Positions 24,676 to 32,570 of a DNA stretch of 59,757 nucleotides are shown in pieces. Each line of letters begins with the position of its first letter. Within the stretch, counting starts at the first letter, position 1. Position numbers and translations under genes: made by a program. The notes below the pieces were generated by a model. The model searched no databases and was not told where the DNA came from. It saw only the letters and a list, made by a program, of their open reading frames with translations. This DNA is from Chloroflexota bacterium (GTDB lineage: Bacteria; Chloroflexota; Dormibacteria; Dormibacterales; Dormibacteraceae), in contig VBHJ01000003.1 in assembly GCA_005887685.1 (NCBI GenBank), positions 1-59,757 of the forward strand, written 5' to 3'.

Positions 24676-24698
24676 AGGCCTGCCTCCCCCGCGCTCTA
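24676..24698. repeat. Direct repeat copy B, overlapping the ppc stop codon
   Basis: Near-identical to 24553-24574. Its terminal CTA is the ppc TAG stop on the minus strand, so the repeat either invaded the gene end or was duplicated from it. Confidence 0.65.
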
Positions 24699-27236
24699 AC
24701 CCGTGTTCTGAAGCCCGGCCGCCACTCCGTTCACCGTGAGCTGAAACACGCGCTCGGCCCGCTTCCGATCCGGCCGTGACGTCTTCGGATGCCGCAGCGC
24801 GCGCAGCGCCCTCAGCTGGAGATGCGAGAGCGCGTCGACGTACGGGTTGCGCAGCTCGATCGCCCACGAGAGCACGCGGCGGTCCTCCAGCAACCTGCGA
24901 TGTCCGGTCACCGCGAGGACCGTTTCCATGGTGAGGTCGTACTCGTCGAGCACCATCGCCGCCAGGTCTGGCCTGTCGCCGAGCGCCAGGTAGCGCTCCG
25001 CGATACGCCGGTCGGTCTTGGCCAGGCTCATCTCGGAGTTGTCGATCATCGCGTTGAACAATGGCCAGTCGGCGTAGGCCCGCCGCAGCTCCCGCAGCGG
25101 CGCGGCCGAGAGTCCGCTGCCCATCCCATACCAGCCGGGCAGGTTCAGTCGCATCTGCGACCAGGCGAACACCCACGGGATCGCGCGCAGGTCCTCCAGG
25201 CGCCGGCCGCCTGCGCGGCGAGTGGGCCGTGACGCTATGCGCAGCCGGCCAAGCTCGTCGATCGGGCTGACCTGCAAGAACCAGTGCTCGAAGCCCGGCG
25301 CCTCGACGAGCCTCCGATACGCCGCGCGAGAGGGGCCGTCGATCTGAGACGCGAGCTCGCTGAATGCCAGTGCCGGGTCGGTGCGCGGCGGGCGCGGCAC
25401 CGATGCTTCGAGCACCGCCGACGTGACCTGCTCGACGTGGCGGCGCGCGATCGCCCGGTTTCCGTACCGGGCGAAGATCACCTCGCCCTGCTCGGTCACC
25501 TTGAAGTGGCCGTTCACCGAGCCGGGGGCCTGCGCGCGGACCGCCCGATTGGCTGGTCCCCCTCCGCGACCCAGCGCCCCGCCCCGCCCGTGGAACAGCG
25601 TCAGCTGCACGCGATTCTTCGCCGCCCACGCGGTCAGTGCCGCCTGCGCGTCGTGCAGGGCCAGCGTCGCGGAAAGCGGACCTGCCTCTTTCGCGGAGTC
25701 CGAGTAGCCGAGCATGACCTCGAGCCGGCGCTCGACCCCCAGCCGCTTGCGGACCGGCGCGAGCTCGAGCATCTGGTCGAGGACCTGCGTTGCGTGCGCG
25801 AGGTCGTCCAGTGTCTCGAAGAGCGGGACGACGTCGATCACCGGAGCCTTCTTGCCCCGCGCGTGGCGTGCCAGCTGATAGACGGCGGCGACGTCGGCCG
25901 CGGTCCGCGTGAAGCTGACCACGTACCGGCGGCAGCAGTCGACGCCAAATCGAGCCTGCAGCGAGGCCATGACGTCGAGCGTGTCGAGCACGTCACGGGA
26001 GAGGTCAGACAGCGGAGTCCCCGCGCGAATCTCTGCCAGCGCCCGCTCATGCACCTTGCTGTGCTGGCGTATCTCGAGCTCGGCCAGGTGAAAGCCGAAT
26101 GTCTCGGCCTGCCACAACAGGCGCTGGATCTCGCCCATCGCCAAACGGGTGGCGCCCGCTGCGGCGAGCGAGTCGCGGACCGCGCGCAAGTCGTCCACCA
26201 GCTCGGCCGCCGAGGCGTAGGCGAGGGGCTGCTCGAGCAGTCGGGTCGCCCGCAGCCGTCGCGCCACCTGGAGGAGAAACTGGCGATGCGGTTCCGTCGT
26301 CGGTTCCGCGATTCGCCGGCGCACCGCGCGCGAGGGAGGAGTTGTCTCGGAATCGACTGTCAGGGCGCGGCCGACGCGATTCGCCACCGTCTCGAGGGCG
26401 AGCAGCGCGTGCTCGGAGTGGATCGCCATCGTGTCTGACGTCACCTGCGCTGTGACCGCGGGGTTTCCATCGCGGTCGCCGCCGATCCAGCTCCCAAAGC
26501 GGAGGAATGGGGGCGCGGGCGTTCCGAGCGCGGTGTCGAGCGAACGCATCAGCTCTGGGACGACGCGGAACAGCGTCTCGTCGAACACCGCCATGAAAGA
26601 CCGCACCTCGTCGAGCGGCTGCACGTGCGAGGAGCGCAGCAGCGCTGTGCGCCACAGGCCGTCGACCTCTTCGGCCAGGCGATGCTCCGCGTCGCTGCGC
26701 TCGAAGTCGGAAATTCTCGGATCTTCGAGCCGCTCCAGCTGCTCGCCCACGCGACGGATCGCGGTCACGACCGCGCGCCGCCTCGCCTCGGTGGGATGCG
26801 CGGTGAAAACGGGATGGATCTCGAGATTCGCGACCAGTTTGGCGAGTCGCTTGCGTCCGAGCTTCGGCCGCAGCTCGTTGATCGTCGCGGCCAACGACTC
26901 CGGCTGCGGCGCCGGCCCGCGGTCCCGCTCGCGAAGCACCCGCGCGCGGTGGTGCTCCTCGGCGAGGTTCGCCAGGTGGAAGTAGCACGCAAACGCGCGC
27001 GCGACCAGCTCGGCCCGTTCGAGCTGCCACGAAGCCGCGAGCTTTTCCGCGGCACGTTCATAACGCCCGTCGTCGCGTGCGCGGATGACGAGCGCGCGCA
27101 GCTTCTCGACGTCGCGGAGAAGACTCGCTCCGCCGTAGTCCGCAATCACGTTGCCCAGGAGTCCACCGAGAAGGCGGATGTCACGCCGCAGCGGCTCGGG
27201 GATCTCCTGGCGGGCGGCTTCCCGAGTCTTATTCAA
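24696..27236 (-). CDS. ppc: Phosphoenolpyruvate carboxylase
   Basis: 846 residues, slightly shorter than the E. coli enzyme. Converts PEP and bicarbonate to oxaloacetate. VFTAHPTEARRR (catalytic His), GGDRDGNPAVT, MLGYSDSAKEAG, FHGRGGALGRGGGP and the invariant C-terminal QNTG are all present. The TTG start overlaps the cimA end by eight bases, so it sits in the same transcript behind the isoleucine-rich leader. Oxaloacetate feeds aspartate-family amino acids. Confidence 0.95.
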   Translation of the reverse strand: MNKTREAARQEIPEPLRRDIRLLGGLLGNVIADYGGASLLRDVEKLRALVIRARDDGRYERAAEKLAASWQLERAELVARAFACYFHLANLAEEHHRARVLRERDRGPAPQPESLAATINELRPKLGRKRLAKLVANLEIHPVFTAHPTEARRRAVVTAIRRVGEQLERLEDPRISDFERSDAEHRLAEEVDGLWRTALLRSSHVQPLDEVRSFMAVFDETLFRVVPELMRSLDTALGTPAPPFLRFGSWIGGDRDGNPAVTAQVTSDTMAIHSEHALLALETVANRVGRALTVDSETTPPSRAVRRRIAEPTTEPHRQFLLQVARRLRATRLLEQPLAYASAAELVDDLRAVRDSLAAAGATRLAMGEIQRLLWQAETFGFHLAELEIRQHSKVHERALAEIRAGTPLSDLSRDVLDTLDVMASLQARFGVDCCRRYVVSFTRTAADVAAVYQLARHARGKKAPVIDVVPLFETLDDLAHATQVLDQMLELAPVRKRLGVERRLEVMLGYSDSAKEAGPLSATLALHDAQAALTAWAAKNRVQLTLFHGRGGALGRGGGPANRAVRAQAPGSVNGHFKVTEQGEVIFARYGNRAIARRHVEQVTSAVLEASVPRPPRTDPALAFSELASQIDGPSRAAYRRLVEAPGFEHWFLQVSPIDELGRLRIASRPTRRAGGRRLEDLRAIPWVFAWSQMRLNLPGWYGMGSGLSAAPLRELRRAYADWPLFNAMIDNSEMSLAKTDRRIAERYLALGDRPDLAAMVLDEYDLTMETVLAVTGHRRLLEDRRVLSWAIELRNPYVDALSHLQLRALRALRHPKTSRPDRKRAERVFQLTVNGVAAGLQNTG

Positions 27237-28812
27237 CCGGTCTGGAGACGATGTACTCCAGGGAGTCGACCAGCGCGAGCAGGGACGCCTCGATGATGTT
27301 GCTCGAGCATCCCACCGTGGTCCAGCGCCGGGTCCCCTTGCCCGATTCGACGAGCACCCGCGTGGTGGCCGCCGTTCCCGCGTCGCCGTTCAGGATGCGC
27401 ACCTTGTAATCGTGCAGGCTCACATCCTCGAGCGCTGGAAAGCGCGGGCTGAGCGCCTTGCGCAGCGCCGCGTCAAGCGCGTTGACTGGACCGTTGCCTG
27501 ACGCCGCCGTGTGATAGACGGTTCCGCCGACGTCCACTTTGACCGTCGCTTCCGCGTGGACTGAGCCGCCGTTCTTGCGCACCTGCGTCGTGAAGTCGGC
27601 GACGGTCCATGGCGCGGCGTAGTCGGGCTGCAGGCGTCGCACCAGCATCTCGAAGGATGCATCCGCCGCCTCGTACGAGTACCCCTGGTGCTCGAGCTCC
27701 TTCAGGTGATTCACGAGCCAGCGTGTCTGCGGGTCGTCGCGGTCGAGCTCGAGACCGAACTCGCGCGCCTTGGCCAGCACGTTGCCTCGGCCCGAAAGCT
27801 CCGAGACGAGGACGCGTGCTTCGTTTCCGACCACGCCGGGATCGATGTGCTGGTAGGCGTCCTTGTGCCGAAGAACGGCGGCGACGTGCTGCCCGCCCTT
27901 GTGGGCGAACGCGCCGTAACCGACAAACGGCTGCTGGAGGGGAAGCGCGAGGTTGGCGATCTCGGCCACGGTGCGCGACAGCTCGGTGAACTGAGCGAGC
28001 GAGGTGTCAGGAAGCGCCTCGATGCCTAGCTTCAGCGCCAGGTTGGAGACGACGGAGACGAGGTTCGCATTGCCGCACCGCTCGCCGTATCCGTTGATGG
28101 TTCCCTGCACCATGTCGGCGCCGGCCACCACCCCCTCGAGCGTGTTGGCGACGGCGAGCTCGCAGTCATTGTGGGTGTGGATTCCGACCCTGGCCGAGCT
28201 GCCCATCTCACGCAGCGCGTCGCGGATCGCCTCCACGCCGGCTCTGATCGCCGACGGCATGCTGCCTCCGTTGGTGTCGCAGAGAACCACCCAGGATGCG
28301 CCGGCCCGGGCGGCAGAAAGACAGACTTCGGTCGCGTACTCGGCGTCGCGCGCGAAGCCGTCGAAGAAATGCTCGGCGTCGAAGATCACCTCCCGATCGA
28401 GACCCACCGCGTAAGCGACCGAGTCCTCGACCATCGCGAGGTTTTCGTTGTTCGTGGTCTGCAGCACGGTCGCGACCTGCCATGCGTCGCTCTTGCCGAC
28501 GAGCGTCCACACCGGAGCGTTGCTCTGCGCGAGCGCCTTCAGGTTGGCGTCGTCCTCGCAGCTTCCGCCCGCGCGCCGGGTCGCGCCGAAAGCCGCCAGG
28601 CGTGCGTGTTCGAGAGGTTCCTCGGCCAGCCGCGCGAAGAGCTCTTCGTCCTTGGGGTTGGAGCCGGGGAACCCGCCCTCGACATAGTCGAAGCCGAGCC
28701 CGTCGAGCAGTCGCGCGATCCTCTCCTTGTCGGCGGCCGAGAATGAGACGGCCGGACCCTGCGCGCCGTCGCGCAGGGTGGTGTCGTACACCACTATCTT
28801 TCTGGCGGACAT
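27229..28812 (-). CDS. cimA: (R)-citramalate synthase
   Basis: 527 residues, the long CimA type. Condenses pyruvate and acetyl-CoA to citramalate, the threonine-independent entry to isoleucine. YDTTLRDGAQGPAVSF (metal and substrate Asp/Arg), GIHTHNDCELAVANT (metal His pair) and GYGERCGNANL are the catalytic segments; a C-terminal regulatory domain begins near 400. The preceding terminator's 3' arm contains GGGAGG, seven bases before ATG, so hairpin formation would also hide the ribosome site. Downstream ppc is in the same operon. Confidence 0.9.
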   Translation of the reverse strand: MSARKIVVYDTTLRDGAQGPAVSFSAADKERIARLLDGLGFDYVEGGFPGSNPKDEELFARLAEEPLEHARLAAFGATRRAGGSCEDDANLKALAQSNAPVWTLVGKSDAWQVATVLQTTNNENLAMVEDSVAYAVGLDREVIFDAEHFFDGFARDAEYATEVCLSAARAGASWVVLCDTNGGSMPSAIRAGVEAIRDALREMGSSARVGIHTHNDCELAVANTLEGVVAGADMVQGTINGYGERCGNANLVSVVSNLALKLGIEALPDTSLAQFTELSRTVAEIANLALPLQQPFVGYGAFAHKGGQHVAAVLRHKDAYQHIDPGVVGNEARVLVSELSGRGNVLAKAREFGLELDRDDPQTRWLVNHLKELEHQGYSYEAADASFEMLVRRLQPDYAAPWTVADFTTQVRKNGGSVHAEATVKVDVGGTVYHTAASGNGPVNALDAALRKALSPRFPALEDVSLHDYKVRILNGDAGTAATTRVLVESGKGTRRWTTVGCSSNIIEASLLALVDSLEYIVSRPVE

Positions 28813-28849
28813 AAAAAAACCTCCCGACCCTTTCTAGGCCGGGAGGTCC
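28813..28849 (-). terminator. Intrinsic terminator / attenuator of cimA
   Basis: On the minus strand CCTCCCGGCC pairs with GGTCGGGAGG (10 bp, one G-U) around a 7-base loop, then seven T residues run directly into the cimA ATG. A terminator between promoter and start codon, with the ribosome site in its 3' arm, indicates attenuation rather than the end of another gene. Confidence 0.8.
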
Positions 28850-28891
28850 ACCGAATCAGCGACGCGCGCTAAGTCGGGGGACCTCCCCGGC
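28837..28891 (-). promoter_or_regulatory. Antiterminator arms of the cimA leader
   Basis: Upstream arm GCCGGGGAGGTCC (28891-28879, minus strand) is complementary over 12 bp, with one bulged G, to GGACCTCCCGGC (28849-28838), which is the 5' arm of the terminator. The two structures exclude each other. The upstream arm lies inside the last codons of the leader peptide, so a ribosome reaching the stop would mask it and let the terminator form. Confidence 0.75.
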
Positions 28892-28925
28892 TAATCTCGA
28901 TCCCGATGGCAATCCGGTTACGCAC
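28869..28925 (-). CDS. Isoleucine-rich leader peptide of the cimA-ppc operon (18 aa)
   Basis: GTG at 28925 opens MRNRIAIGIEISRGGPPT and a TAG. Four of residues 5-11 are Ile, the end product of the CimA pathway. The final codons cover the antiterminator arm. No Shine-Dalgarno is visible, but a TAGTCT -10-like element ends ten bases before GTG, so the transcript may be nearly leaderless. Classical ribosome-mediated attenuation is inferred from this layout. Confidence 0.7.
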   Translation of the reverse strand: MRNRIAIGIEISRGGPPT

Positions 28926-29047
28926 CGTGCGGGGAAGACTACGCCTTGGGGCCGCCGGCGGATATGGTCTTCGCCGCCAATTCGAACCGAGGTGTTTAGT
29001 GTTGCGTCGACAGCCGGCCATCCTGGATCGATAGGAGCTACCTGCGC

Positions 29048-30576: not shown

Positions 30577-31380
30577 CACGTCACGGGTCTTGACGCTGAT
30601 CGCCATCGTCCCCGTCGCAGAGCCGACATACACGCCACGCGTCGGCGCGGCATCCGTGTAGTCGCGTCCCACTGCAAGCCGCACGTGATGCGGCGTAGTC
30701 CGGATCGGATGCGTTGCGTCGAACCCGATCCAACCGCGACCCGCGACCCAGGCCTCGGCCCACGCGTGCGACGCGGTCGCGACTTTCTCACCTGGCGAGT
30801 GGATGTATCCGCTGACGTAGCGCGCGGGCACGCCCATGTCGCGCGCGACTGCGATGAATAGATGCGCGAAGTCCTGGCACACACCGGCGCGAAGGTTGAG
30901 CACGTCATCGACCGCGCTGTAGACGTTCGTCACCGTGCGGTCGTACGTGAAGTCGCGGCTGATGGTGGTCGTGAGCTCGTCGAGCGCTTGCTCGACCGCG
31001 GCGGGTGAGGTGGGGTCCGAGATCGCGTGCCTGAGCGCGAGCTCGCGCACGCCTTCGACATCTTTGACCGGTGACCTGAAGCGCAGGAAGTCCTGCACCA
31101 GCTCCTCGCCCTGCTCCCGGTCTGGAGCGGCGCCGGTCTCGACCGTCGAACGGCTGATCACGCTCAGGCCTGAATGTGGACGGACCAGGTTGAAGTAGTG
31201 AACGTGGTTGCCGAATCCGTCCACGTAGCTCCGTGGCTTGACGCCGTGGCTCACCTCGAGAGTGAAATCAGTGCAGCGCTGTCCGTTGCCGTCCATCGGC
31301 TGCAGCCGCACCTCCATCACGGTCTCGGCGATGGGACCCGAGTAGCGATATCGCGTGCTGTGAACGATCTCCAGCTTCAT
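30568..31380 (-). CDS. Transglutaminase-like cysteine protease-fold protein (1 of 3)
   Basis: 270 residues. An N-terminal beta domain (IVHSTRYRYSGPIAETVMEVRLQP) precedes the papain-like core: catalytic Cys in RAGVCQDFAHL, His in ASHAWAEAW, Asp in IGFDATHPI. The start overlaps the alpha-E stop (ATGA), so it is third in the ATP-grasp/alpha-E/transglutaminase operon. Families of this cluster are predicted to make or remove peptide or amide tags. Confidence 0.85.
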   Translation of the reverse strand: MKLEIVHSTRYRYSGPIAETVMEVRLQPMDGNGQRCTDFTLEVSHGVKPRSYVDGFGNHVHYFNLVRPHSGLSVISRSTVETGAAPDREQGEELVQDFLRFRSPVKDVEGVRELALRHAISDPTSPAAVEQALDELTTTISRDFTYDRTVTNVYSAVDDVLNLRAGVCQDFAHLFIAVARDMGVPARYVSGYIHSPGEKVATASHAWAEAWVAGRGWIGFDATHPIRTTPHHVRLAVGRDYTDAAPTRGVYVGSATGTMAISVKTRDVSG

Positions 31381-32570
31381 GCCATGACCTGTTGCTGCTG
31401 CTGCGGCATGCCGCGTCCCTCTTCTCCAGTGACGGCGGCCGGCACCTTGCTGGGATGGAAGTACGTCTCGCGCAGTGCCAGCTCGAGCTGGCGCAGCAGG
31501 CCCCGGCACTCGGCGTCGAACTCGAGGGGGCTTTGCAAGATCGACTGGGTGTTGGCGTCGCGGTAGAGGCCGTTGAGCTGGACCAGCAGTCGCAGAGGTT
31601 TCGAGCGGCGAGCCTTGCCCTCAATGCGGGCCACCGCCTCGAGCGCGGTAGAGGTCGCAAACCGGGCGGAACGTGGCAGCGAGTCCTCGAGCAGGAGGCA
31701 TTCGATCACGCGGTCCGCCGTCACGCCCCCGCCGTATCGAGCCTGGTAGGACTCGAACGCGAAGCAGCACTTCAACACCGCGGTCCACTCGAGGGCGTCC
31801 TCCGGGGAGTCCGCGAGCTCAGCGGATTTCTGAGTTACGACGCGGGTCACGTTCGCCGCGCGCTCGATGAACTTGCCGAGGCGAACGAAATCGCGCGCCT
31901 CATCGTGGAACATCGTGTCCTCGAGCAGGCCGCATTCGATCACGCGGTCCGCCGTCACGCCCCCGCCGTATCGAGCCTGGTAGGACTCGAACGCGAAGCA
32001 GCACTTCAACACCGCGGTCCACTCGAGGGCGTCCTCCGGGGAGTCCGCGAGCTCAGCGGATTTCTGAGTTACGACGCGGGTCACGTTCGCCGCGCGCTCG
32101 ATGAACTTGCCGAGGCGAACGAAATCGCGCGCCTCATCGTGGAACATCGTGTCCTCGAGCAGGCCGTCCACCAGCCGGATGCTCATCTGCACGTCCATCA
32201 GAAAGGGATAGAGGTCAGGTTGCGCGACCGCTTCCTGGACGCGCCAATGCAGCGCGTTGACCTGTTCGTAAAGCTCGGTCGGAAGGGACGGGCGCACGGC
32301 CTGCGCGGCCAGCCGGGCCGACGCGACGCTGGCCCGCACCGATGGTCCCAGCGTGCCCGCCACCACCATCTCGATCGCCTGCTCGCGTCTACCGGTGTCG
32401 CTGTTGGGCCAACCCGCGAGCTCCATGAATCGAACCCAGAAGTCGGGTCCAGGCTCGTCGGTGCGGTCGAGCGCCAGGGCGACGTGCACGCCCAGGATGC
32501 GCGCGAGATGGTCGGCCCGCTCGAGATGGCGACCCAGCAATGCGAGCGAGGTCGCGGCGCGGCTAAGCAT
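31377..32570 (-). CDS. Alpha-E domain protein with internal 78-residue duplication
   Basis: 397 residues, against roughly 310-330 usual. MLSRAATSLALLGRHLERADHLARIL is the conserved start. The segment from GLLEDTMFHDEARDF to TADRVIEC occurs twice in tandem without a single difference, which accounts for the surplus 78 residues. Removing one copy restores family length. Alpha-E domains are all-helical and accompany ATP-grasp ligases. Start overlaps the upstream ATP-grasp gene by eight bases. Confidence 0.85.
   Translation of the reverse strand: MLSRAATSLALLGRHLERADHLARILGVHVALALDRTDEPGPDFWVRFMELAGWPNSDTGRREQAIEMVVAGTLGPSVRASVASARLAAQAVRPSLPTELYEQVNALHWRVQEAVAQPDLYPFLMDVQMSIRLVDGLLEDTMFHDEARDFVRLGKFIERAANVTRVVTQKSAELADSPEDALEWTAVLKCCFAFESYQARYGGGVTADRVIECGLLEDTMFHDEARDFVRLGKFIERAANVTRVVTQKSAELADSPEDALEWTAVLKCCFAFESYQARYGGGVTADRVIECLLLEDSLPRSARFATSTALEAVARIEGKARRSKPLRLLVQLNGLYRDANTQSILQSPLEFDAECRGLLRQLELALRETYFHPSKVPAAVTGEEGRGMPQQQQQVMA
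31684..32151. repeat. Perfect 234-bp tandem duplication inside the alpha-E gene
   Basis: Period 234 bp, bounded by three copies of CCTCGAGCAGG at 31685, 31919 and 32153. By eye the two units match base for base. In frame (78 codons). Consistent with a very recent duplication through the short boundary repeat, or with an assembly artefact. Confidence 0.9.

Follow-up and report, generated by a model that had tools for sequence, protein, structure and literature searches.

A probable isoleucine-sensing, ribosome-mediated attenuator upstream of the citramalate synthase gene cimA in Dormibacteria

The window, that is, the whole stretch of 59,757 nucleotides analysed here, carries on its minus strand, directly upstream of cimA, a short leader that very probably works as a ribosome-mediated attenuator. 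It would sense charged isoleucyl-tRNA and control cimA, probably along with the adjoining gene ppc. One argument for this reading is that the presence of the leader follows that of cimA within the family: it is found in all 29 genomes with a close cimA match and in none of the 13 without. The mechanism is classical and well supported; no earlier description of an attenuator at cimA, or in Dormibacteria or their phylum, was found among the titles listed in the literature, mostly open-access papers, and the design is compact and fused. For a phylum represented largely by genomes of uncultured members, the leader is a direct indication of how amino-acid metabolism is regulated, and it would equip the committed step of the citramalate route with a sensor of isoleucine.

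The leader ORF and its reading frame

The leader is an open reading frame of 18 residues, listed here with the genes that follow it.

28869–28925, minus strand: leader ORF encoding VRNRIAIGIEISRGGPPT; GTG start, without Shine-Dalgarno sequence, probably leaderless
28820–28825, minus strand: GGGAGG, Shine-Dalgarno sequence of cimA, within the terminator 3' arm (region 3), 7 nt before the ATG
27229–28812, minus strand: cimA, citramalate synthase, 527 aa; TIGR00977, 642.4 bits, cut-off 450
24696–27236, minus strand: phosphoenolpyruvate carboxylase gene (ppc); NF000584 is the best family match, 768.7 bits, below the cut-off of 815

Re-reading of the ORF, from the GTG at 28925 to the TAG at 28869, confirms the minus-strand peptide of the first-pass annotation, with its four isoleucines at residues 5, 7, 9 and 11. 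The distance from the leader start to cimA is only 113 nt. For the window leader taken alone, four or more Ile among 17 codons would arise by chance with a probability of 0.0045. Ile accounts for 20.9% of the codons in the 26 aligned leaders (96 of 459) but for only 4.1% of the residues in six genes of the window (110 of 2661; Fisher p 3e-30, with the caveat that related leaders are not independent). The choice of codon is also skewed, ATT accounting for 40 of the 96 leader Ile codons against 7 of 110 in the same six genes (Fisher p 1e-9, under the same caveat of relatedness). Twenty of the 29 leaders have 18 codons and could be compared position by position; in these, codon 9 is ATC and codon 11 is ATT without exception.

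Between relatives the leader peptides vary but retain their Ile codons and the place of the stop codon. Among 111 leader pairs with 1–9 differences, 146 of 270 single-base codon differences are synonymous in the true frame, compared with 75 of 346 and 70 of 404 in the two shifted frames; the 124 differences that alter a residue count against constraint on the frame. Differences in these pairs number 178, 252 and 315 at the three codon positions, and the frame is preserved across two long insertions, in L024 and L080. Taken as a pattern of substitution, this points to a reading frame that is under selection. The end of the peptide, RGGPPT before the stop codon, is strongly conserved, with Pro-Pro in most leaders; variants are RGGSPT, RGGFPT, LGGPAT and WGGRET.

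cimA, ppc and the route to isoleucine

The score of the TIGR00977 match bears out the earlier call of the downstream gene as cimA. Citramalate leads to isoleucine. On the same strand ppc follows, overlapping cimA by 8 nt; it adjoins cimA in 23 of 27 loci and was not found in L017, L020, L021 and L022. It is probably part of the same transcript, and the isoleucine leader may govern phosphoenolpyruvate carboxylase too, in which case an anaplerotic enzyme would be coupled to the supply of isoleucine.

The distribution of threonine deaminase was compared in 42 genomes. Among the matches listed, one over the full span of TIGR01127 was found for 6 of the 18 genomes lacking a cimA orthologue, split into two pieces in one of them, and for none of the 24 that possess an orthologue. 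TIGR01127 was discarded as a clean test, since its curated cut-off is passed in none of the 42 genomes among the matches listed and shorter paralogues occur in all 42; only full-length matches were compared. The distribution agrees with, and does not prove, citramalate as the route to isoleucine in these genomes.

Distribution of the leader

cimA was searched for in 81 genomes, and the leader, by means of a covariance model with strict filters, in 110 genomes of the class. Within the window's family (42 genomes), close cimA matches were found in 29, in separate pieces in G010, G012 and G031, and the leader is present in all 29. The remaining 13 genomes have neither cimA nor leader; some of them are incomplete (59–96%).

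The alignment comprises 26 rows (L001, L006–L015 and L017–L031). Left out were L002–L005 (other matches in the own genome), L016 (whose contig starts inside cimA) and L032–L034 (from other families, with no terminator found). Three extra leaders, L080–L082, were used only in the −10 and codon tests, and their pairings were judged by eye. The first-pass annotation had proposed a comparison of relatives as a check on its reading, and the outcome supports that reading: the Ile-rich frame is kept in 29 of 29 leaders (26 aligned and three more) and both pairings are kept (26 counted, three by eye). Covariation in the strict sense did not rise above shuffles.

The covariance model built from the 26 leaders, the window's included, found no further leader copy in the window's genome; its matches there are the cimA leader site and a weak match on the opposite strand of that site. 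The cimA genes of families f2 and f4 are 51–66% identical, and the leader model has no match before them; in L032 and L034 cimA is located after a gene that by eye resembles leuB. In 400 sampled genomes of the phylum the model matched 19 (13 of family f1 and six of f2) and none elsewhere, with strict filters that lose weak matches.

Two alternative folds

The leader is predicted to fold in two mutually exclusive ways, built from the following elements.

28879–28887, minus strand: region 1, GGGAGGTCC, lies within the leader ORF and forms the antiterminator's 5' arm
28874–28877, minus strand: CCGA, extends the antiterminator inward by pairing with TCGG at 28854–28851
28856–28872, minus strand: hairpin TTAGCG...CGCTGA at the inner end of the antiterminator; overlaps the stop codon of the leader
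28841–28849, minus strand: region 2, GGACCTCCC, common to antiterminator and terminator, beginning 19 nt after the leader stop codon
28813–28849, minus strand: intrinsic terminator; the stem, 28849–28817, includes the first three T of the T7 tract at 28819–28813

Region 1 (28887–28879) is the exact reverse complement of region 2 (28849–28841). In the window the antiterminator consists of these 9 pairs, then the 4 pairs of CCGA with TCGG, then the inner hairpin of 6. Here the first-pass annotation was right in part: its core pairing, GGGAGGTCC with GGACCTCCC, is exact, whereas the longer arm that it proposed, GCCGGGGAGGTCC with GGACCTCCCGGC, needs one bulged G. The outer GCC:GGC extension of that longer arm is absent from the predicted fold and was dropped; the predicted extension runs inward.

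The terminator stem, reported by a terminator scan, has 14 pairs, with region 2 as its 5' arm. Its T7 tract abuts the cimA ATG (28812–28810), in agreement with the earlier description of a terminator ending in seven T directly before cimA, and forms the spacer between the Shine-Dalgarno sequence and the ATG. Against dinucleotide shuffles, the predicted energies are −34.5 kcal/mol for the antiterminator (z −4.4), −25 kcal/mol for the terminator (z −4.8) and −51.2 kcal/mol for the whole leader fold (z −2.4).

The pairs of both folds are kept among the relatives. In the 26-row alignment the antiterminator pairs are formed in 89.7% of cells (36–53% when the partner is slid) and the terminator pairs in 95.1% (28–64% when slid). 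Covariation in the same alignment is not above shuffles, with two-sided changes at 2 antiterminator pairs and 1 terminator pair, and does not prove either fold; weak covariation is expected because one arm serves two partners. The argument rests, therefore, on conservation, on the reading frame and on the slid controls. The T7 tract is invariant, at exactly 7, in 26 of 26 rows, which argues for termination. The GAGG of the cimA ribosome site is likewise invariant in 26 of 26 rows. The position of GGGAGG (28825–28820) inside the 3' arm would hide the ribosome site in the stem, as the first-pass annotation had it, and argues that transcripts escaping termination are shut too.

The consensus fold shows in addition that region 1 can fold on itself with five pairs, each formed in 24–25 of the 26 rows. 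This self-fold is likely an anti-antiterminator, by analogy with the one proposed for Corynebacterium glutamicum ilvBNC (PMC11857589).

Modelled dependence of the folds on ribosome position

The effect of a translating ribosome was modelled for the 26 leaders. In the co-transcriptional model the RNA is cut off immediately downstream of region 2, and the ribosome occupies 10, 13 or 16 nt. When the first Ile codon is in the A site, the predicted probability of the antiterminator is at least 0.5 in 25 of 26 leaders; the exception, at the 13 nt footprint, is L028, where it is 0.31 at the first Ile codon and 0.98 at the second. With the stop codon in the A site the value is 0.00 in 26 of 26 leaders with all three footprints. 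The last Ile codon gives, for the median leader, 0.00 at 13 and 16 nt and 0.80 at 10 nt, so that, with the two larger footprints, not every Ile codon would be able to act. The ribosome-free short RNA favours the antiterminator (median 0.87), and an untranslated leader is therefore predicted to read through.

The picture is different when the full leader is folded at equilibrium. With the ribosome at the stop codon the terminator is close to 1.0 in 25 of 26 leaders (0.75 in L008), but with the ribosome at the first Ile codon the antiterminator reaches 0.5 in only 14 of 26. Low values at the first Ile codon are found in L012 (0.03), L017 (0.10) and L022 (0.00), and L010 reaches 0.5 at no codon. 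The window leader itself gives 0.83 at Ile5, 0.45 at Ile7, 0.08 at Ile9 and 0.03 at Ile11. Because the antiterminator wins at equilibrium in only 14 of 26 leaders, the mechanism would depend on which of the arms is made first. The earlier proposal, that stalling at early Ile codons frees the antiterminator arm and that reaching the stop codon covers it, is thus reproduced by the co-transcriptional model and only in part by the equilibrium one.

Promoter-like elements and the start of the leader

Two elements are located upstream of the leader ORF.

28936–28941, minus strand: TAGTCT, −10-like element (TANNNT), 10 nt 5' of the leader start codon
28962–28981, minus strand: conserved block ATTGG-N9-CCATAT, 5' of the −10-like site, candidate promoter or regulator element

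A TANNNT hexamer lies 7–12 nt 5' of the start codon in 29 of 29 leaders, where shuffled sequence would give 7.1% (4–14 nt range). No Shine-Dalgarno match of 4 bases was found in the 20 nt before the leader start in 28 of the 29 leaders. With the usual spacing from a −10 element, the transcript would start at the start codon or no more than a few bases from it. Given this position of the hexamer and the lack of a Shine-Dalgarno sequence, we regard the ORF as probably leaderless; transcription would begin at the GTG or a few bases before it. A sigma-70 consensus scan upstream of the leader recognised no promoter or consensus pair.

The ATTGG-N9-CCATAT block lies 37–56 nt 5' of the leader start. 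Variants of it occur throughout the 26 rows, with five invariant columns, namely TTG and, further on, one C and one A. The window's upstream neighbour gene encodes an aquaporin, which is found upstream in only 14 of 27 loci (of the other 13, L016 has no upstream sequence), and the block is present also where the neighbour differs. Judged by this conservation, ATTGG-N9-CCAT is possibly a regulator site or a promoter element.

Proposed mechanism

In the mechanism that we propose, transcription starts at or a few bases before the GTG and the leader is read as a leaderless ORF. When charged isoleucyl-tRNA is scarce, the ribosome would stall at the first Ile codons and leave region 1 free to pair with region 2 as soon as the latter is made; the terminator would be blocked, RNA polymerase would run on and the cimA ribosome site would be open. 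When it is plentiful, the ribosome would reach the stop codon and cover region 1, region 2 would pair with region 3, and transcription would end in the U7 tract. In a transcript that escaped termination, the cimA ribosome site would be locked in the stem. Control would then be dual, transcriptional and translational. The compact fusion of terminator and ribosome site makes the leader easy to rebuild as a reporter.

Alternative explanations

The same elements could act on translation only, with the ribosome position opening or closing the hairpin over the cimA ribosome site and the U tract as a mere spacer. The placing of GGGAGG in the 3' arm, 7 nt from the ATG, is what this would require, and a tract of exactly 7 in 26 of 26 rows would suit a spacer of fixed length; a spacer need not, however, be all T, yet the T7 is invariant, and the stem is strong (−25 kcal/mol) and was reported by the terminator scan, and we consider control of translation alone unlikely. 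It is also conceivable that the conserved peptide end, RGGPPT before the stop codon with its Pro-Pro in most leaders, stalls the ribosome on a ligand, rather than starvation at Ile codons doing so. The bases under the peptide end are, however, constrained by the pairing of region 1, the end residues vary as listed above, and a ribosome arrested there is predicted by the model to cover region 1 and turn the gene off; nascent-peptide arrest therefore appears very unlikely.

A terminator right before a gene can serve as a fixed brake, giving a low basal level or stopping read-through without any sensing of isoleucine, and the ORF would then be a leftover. Such a brake would have no need of an antiterminator arm, of Ile codons or of a constant stop position, all of which are kept (26 aligned leaders and three by eye), and we give this explanation hardly any credence. 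A T-box or other tRNA- or ligand-sensing leader, with a coincidental small ORF, would share the layout of terminator and antiterminator, and T-boxes are present in Chloroflexi according to PMC3766115. The window has, on the other hand, no Rfam family at its gathering score, and nine weak Rfam matches (E up to 10), all below gathering scores, include no T-box; no known Rfam family fits, the distance from leader start to cimA is only 113 nt, and the Ile frame is conserved, which together make a leader of this kind extremely improbable.

Relation to known attenuators

Attenuation dependent on isoleucyl-tRNA, as proposed here for cimA, has classical counterparts. In E. coli, ilvGMEDA is controlled by transcription attenuation in a multivalent manner by Ile, Val and Leu; Ile is among the regulatory codons there, as in the cimA leader, in a different operon. 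In C. glutamicum, the ilvBNC leader controls acetohydroxy acid synthase genes and carries mixed branched-chain codons; in the present leader Ile is the enriched branched-chain residue, the gene is cimA, the phylum is another one, and the terminator stem takes in the ribosome site. In mycobacteria, short Cys-rich ORFs that are leaderless reportedly act as amino-acid-responsive attenuators (Canestrari 2020); they are likewise leaderless short ORF sensors, but for cysteine, whereas the cimA leader would sense isoleucine. A wide comparative survey reportedly made by Lopatovskaya in 2010 could include related cases.

According to PMC11857589, the C. glutamicum ilvBNC leader has a terminator, an antiterminator and an anti-antiterminator, to which the self-fold of region 1 would correspond. 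The ilvB1 gene of Mycobacterium tuberculosis is preceded by a translated uORF with the regulatory codons LVVI and then by an intrinsic terminator (PMC13236596). In ilvB1 the antiterminator is blocked when the ribosome sits at the stop codon, as is predicted for cimA; the two differ in that in ilvB1 the end of the U tract (+126) is separated from the gene start (+168), whereas the cimA U tract touches the start codon, and in that the codons are mixed in ilvB1 and mainly Ile in the cimA leader (PMC13236596). PMC1262725 describes ilvB and leuS leaders in Actinobacteria, nowhere mentions cimA in its text, and reports that no conserved terminator hairpins were found for the mycobacterial cys leaders. 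Comparable uORF leaders appear in PMC8632094, and as of 2013 Ile/Val attenuators were, according to PMC3766115, not in Rfam.

The same layout with other codons

In family f2 the leader model matched 14 genomes, with E values of 2e-8 to 7e-4. In one of these, G044 (L066:572-683), a leader encoding MCSTRIRGIVGPGGSRT and a terminator are followed by an 85-residue ORF and then by the large subunit of acetolactate synthase (TIGR00118, 627.9 bits). In the other 13 f2 loci (L067–L079), inspection by eye shows two to four Met codons immediately ahead of the Gly-Gly codons, as in SSITMMMRRGGFRT, VVLATMIMPRGGFRT, TMMMRRGGFRT and ATMIMPRGGFRT, each ending at a stop codon; the terminator layout is the same, and these leaders stand before the start of a threonine-synthase homologue. 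This homology was scored for two of the Met-leader loci (TIGR00260, 264.7 and 265.5 bits), and TIGR00260 matches at Met-leader sites were also found in G052, G060, G072 and G098, and in two pieces in G082; the remaining gene calls were made by eye, and in G062 the contig ends inside the gene.

A second, better TIGR00260 match is located elsewhere in G052, G060, G072 and G098 (282–291 bits). The window's genome and G044 each hold two threonine-synthase homologues as well, and inspection by eye of the sequence upstream, at the second homologue, revealed no Met leader; the presence of two homologues alone does not, therefore, point to methionine. A leader with Met codons at one of two homologues suggests that the gene behind it may have a role in the methionine pathway. 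The papers listed in the literature yielded nothing useful bearing on this idea.

It is possible, although we hold the idea only tentatively and think it rather less than probable, that the Dormibacteria leader is a re-codable module that has moved between genes by a swap of its sensor codons: Ile for cimA, Ile and Val for the acetolactate synthase operon, and Met for the threonine-synthase homologue. The module is defined as a leaderless ORF ending in ...GG..., with the stop codon 15 nt after the start of region 1 (GGAGGT), followed by a terminator in which the gene's own ribosome site serves as the 3' arm and the U tract as the spacer to the start codon. If this were true, the Met codons would predict that the homologue works in the synthesis of methionine or homocysteine, not of threonine, and the Met-coded sibling leader would offer a testable re-annotation. 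The Gly-Gly end was given up as a sign of common ancestry; it is weak in that respect because region 1 must copy GGAGG and so tends to encode Gly-Gly, and Microgenomates leaders with LGG or RGG and the same stop distance exist.

An exact-pattern scan of species genomes, for GGAGGT, CCTCC and GGAGG with T6 before NNTG, returned at least 114 stretches, with 80 loci among the matches listed. Beyond Dormibacteria, these listed matches include many Microgenomates and pheA-like genes of Alishewanella, and some look like chance. The general layout is widespread, and the novelty of the design is therefore modest.

Many Microgenomates loci among the matches listed (e.g. L105, L113, L127, L137, L149 and L151) have leaders that by eye fit the next gene. 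We take the pairs to be aromatic leaders with DAHP-synthase-like and pheS-like genes, a Thr leader with a thrS-like gene and a Met leader with a metE-like gene, and the Alishewanella gene to be pheA-like. Leu-rich leaders before small ORFs were also seen by eye in Microgenomates among the matches listed. A literature search brought up no paper on attenuation by leader peptide in Patescibacteria. A Chloroflexi MAG (L152:168-247) has a Thr-rich leader encoding ITVGTTTTTTEVEAS, followed by a terminator, before a start that by eye is aspartokinase-like.

A tandem repeat in the window

Elsewhere in the window, at 31677–32144, two tandem copies of 234 nt, 98% identical, lie inside an ORF at 31377–32570. 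They may be either a true in-frame duplication of 78 residues or an assembly artefact.
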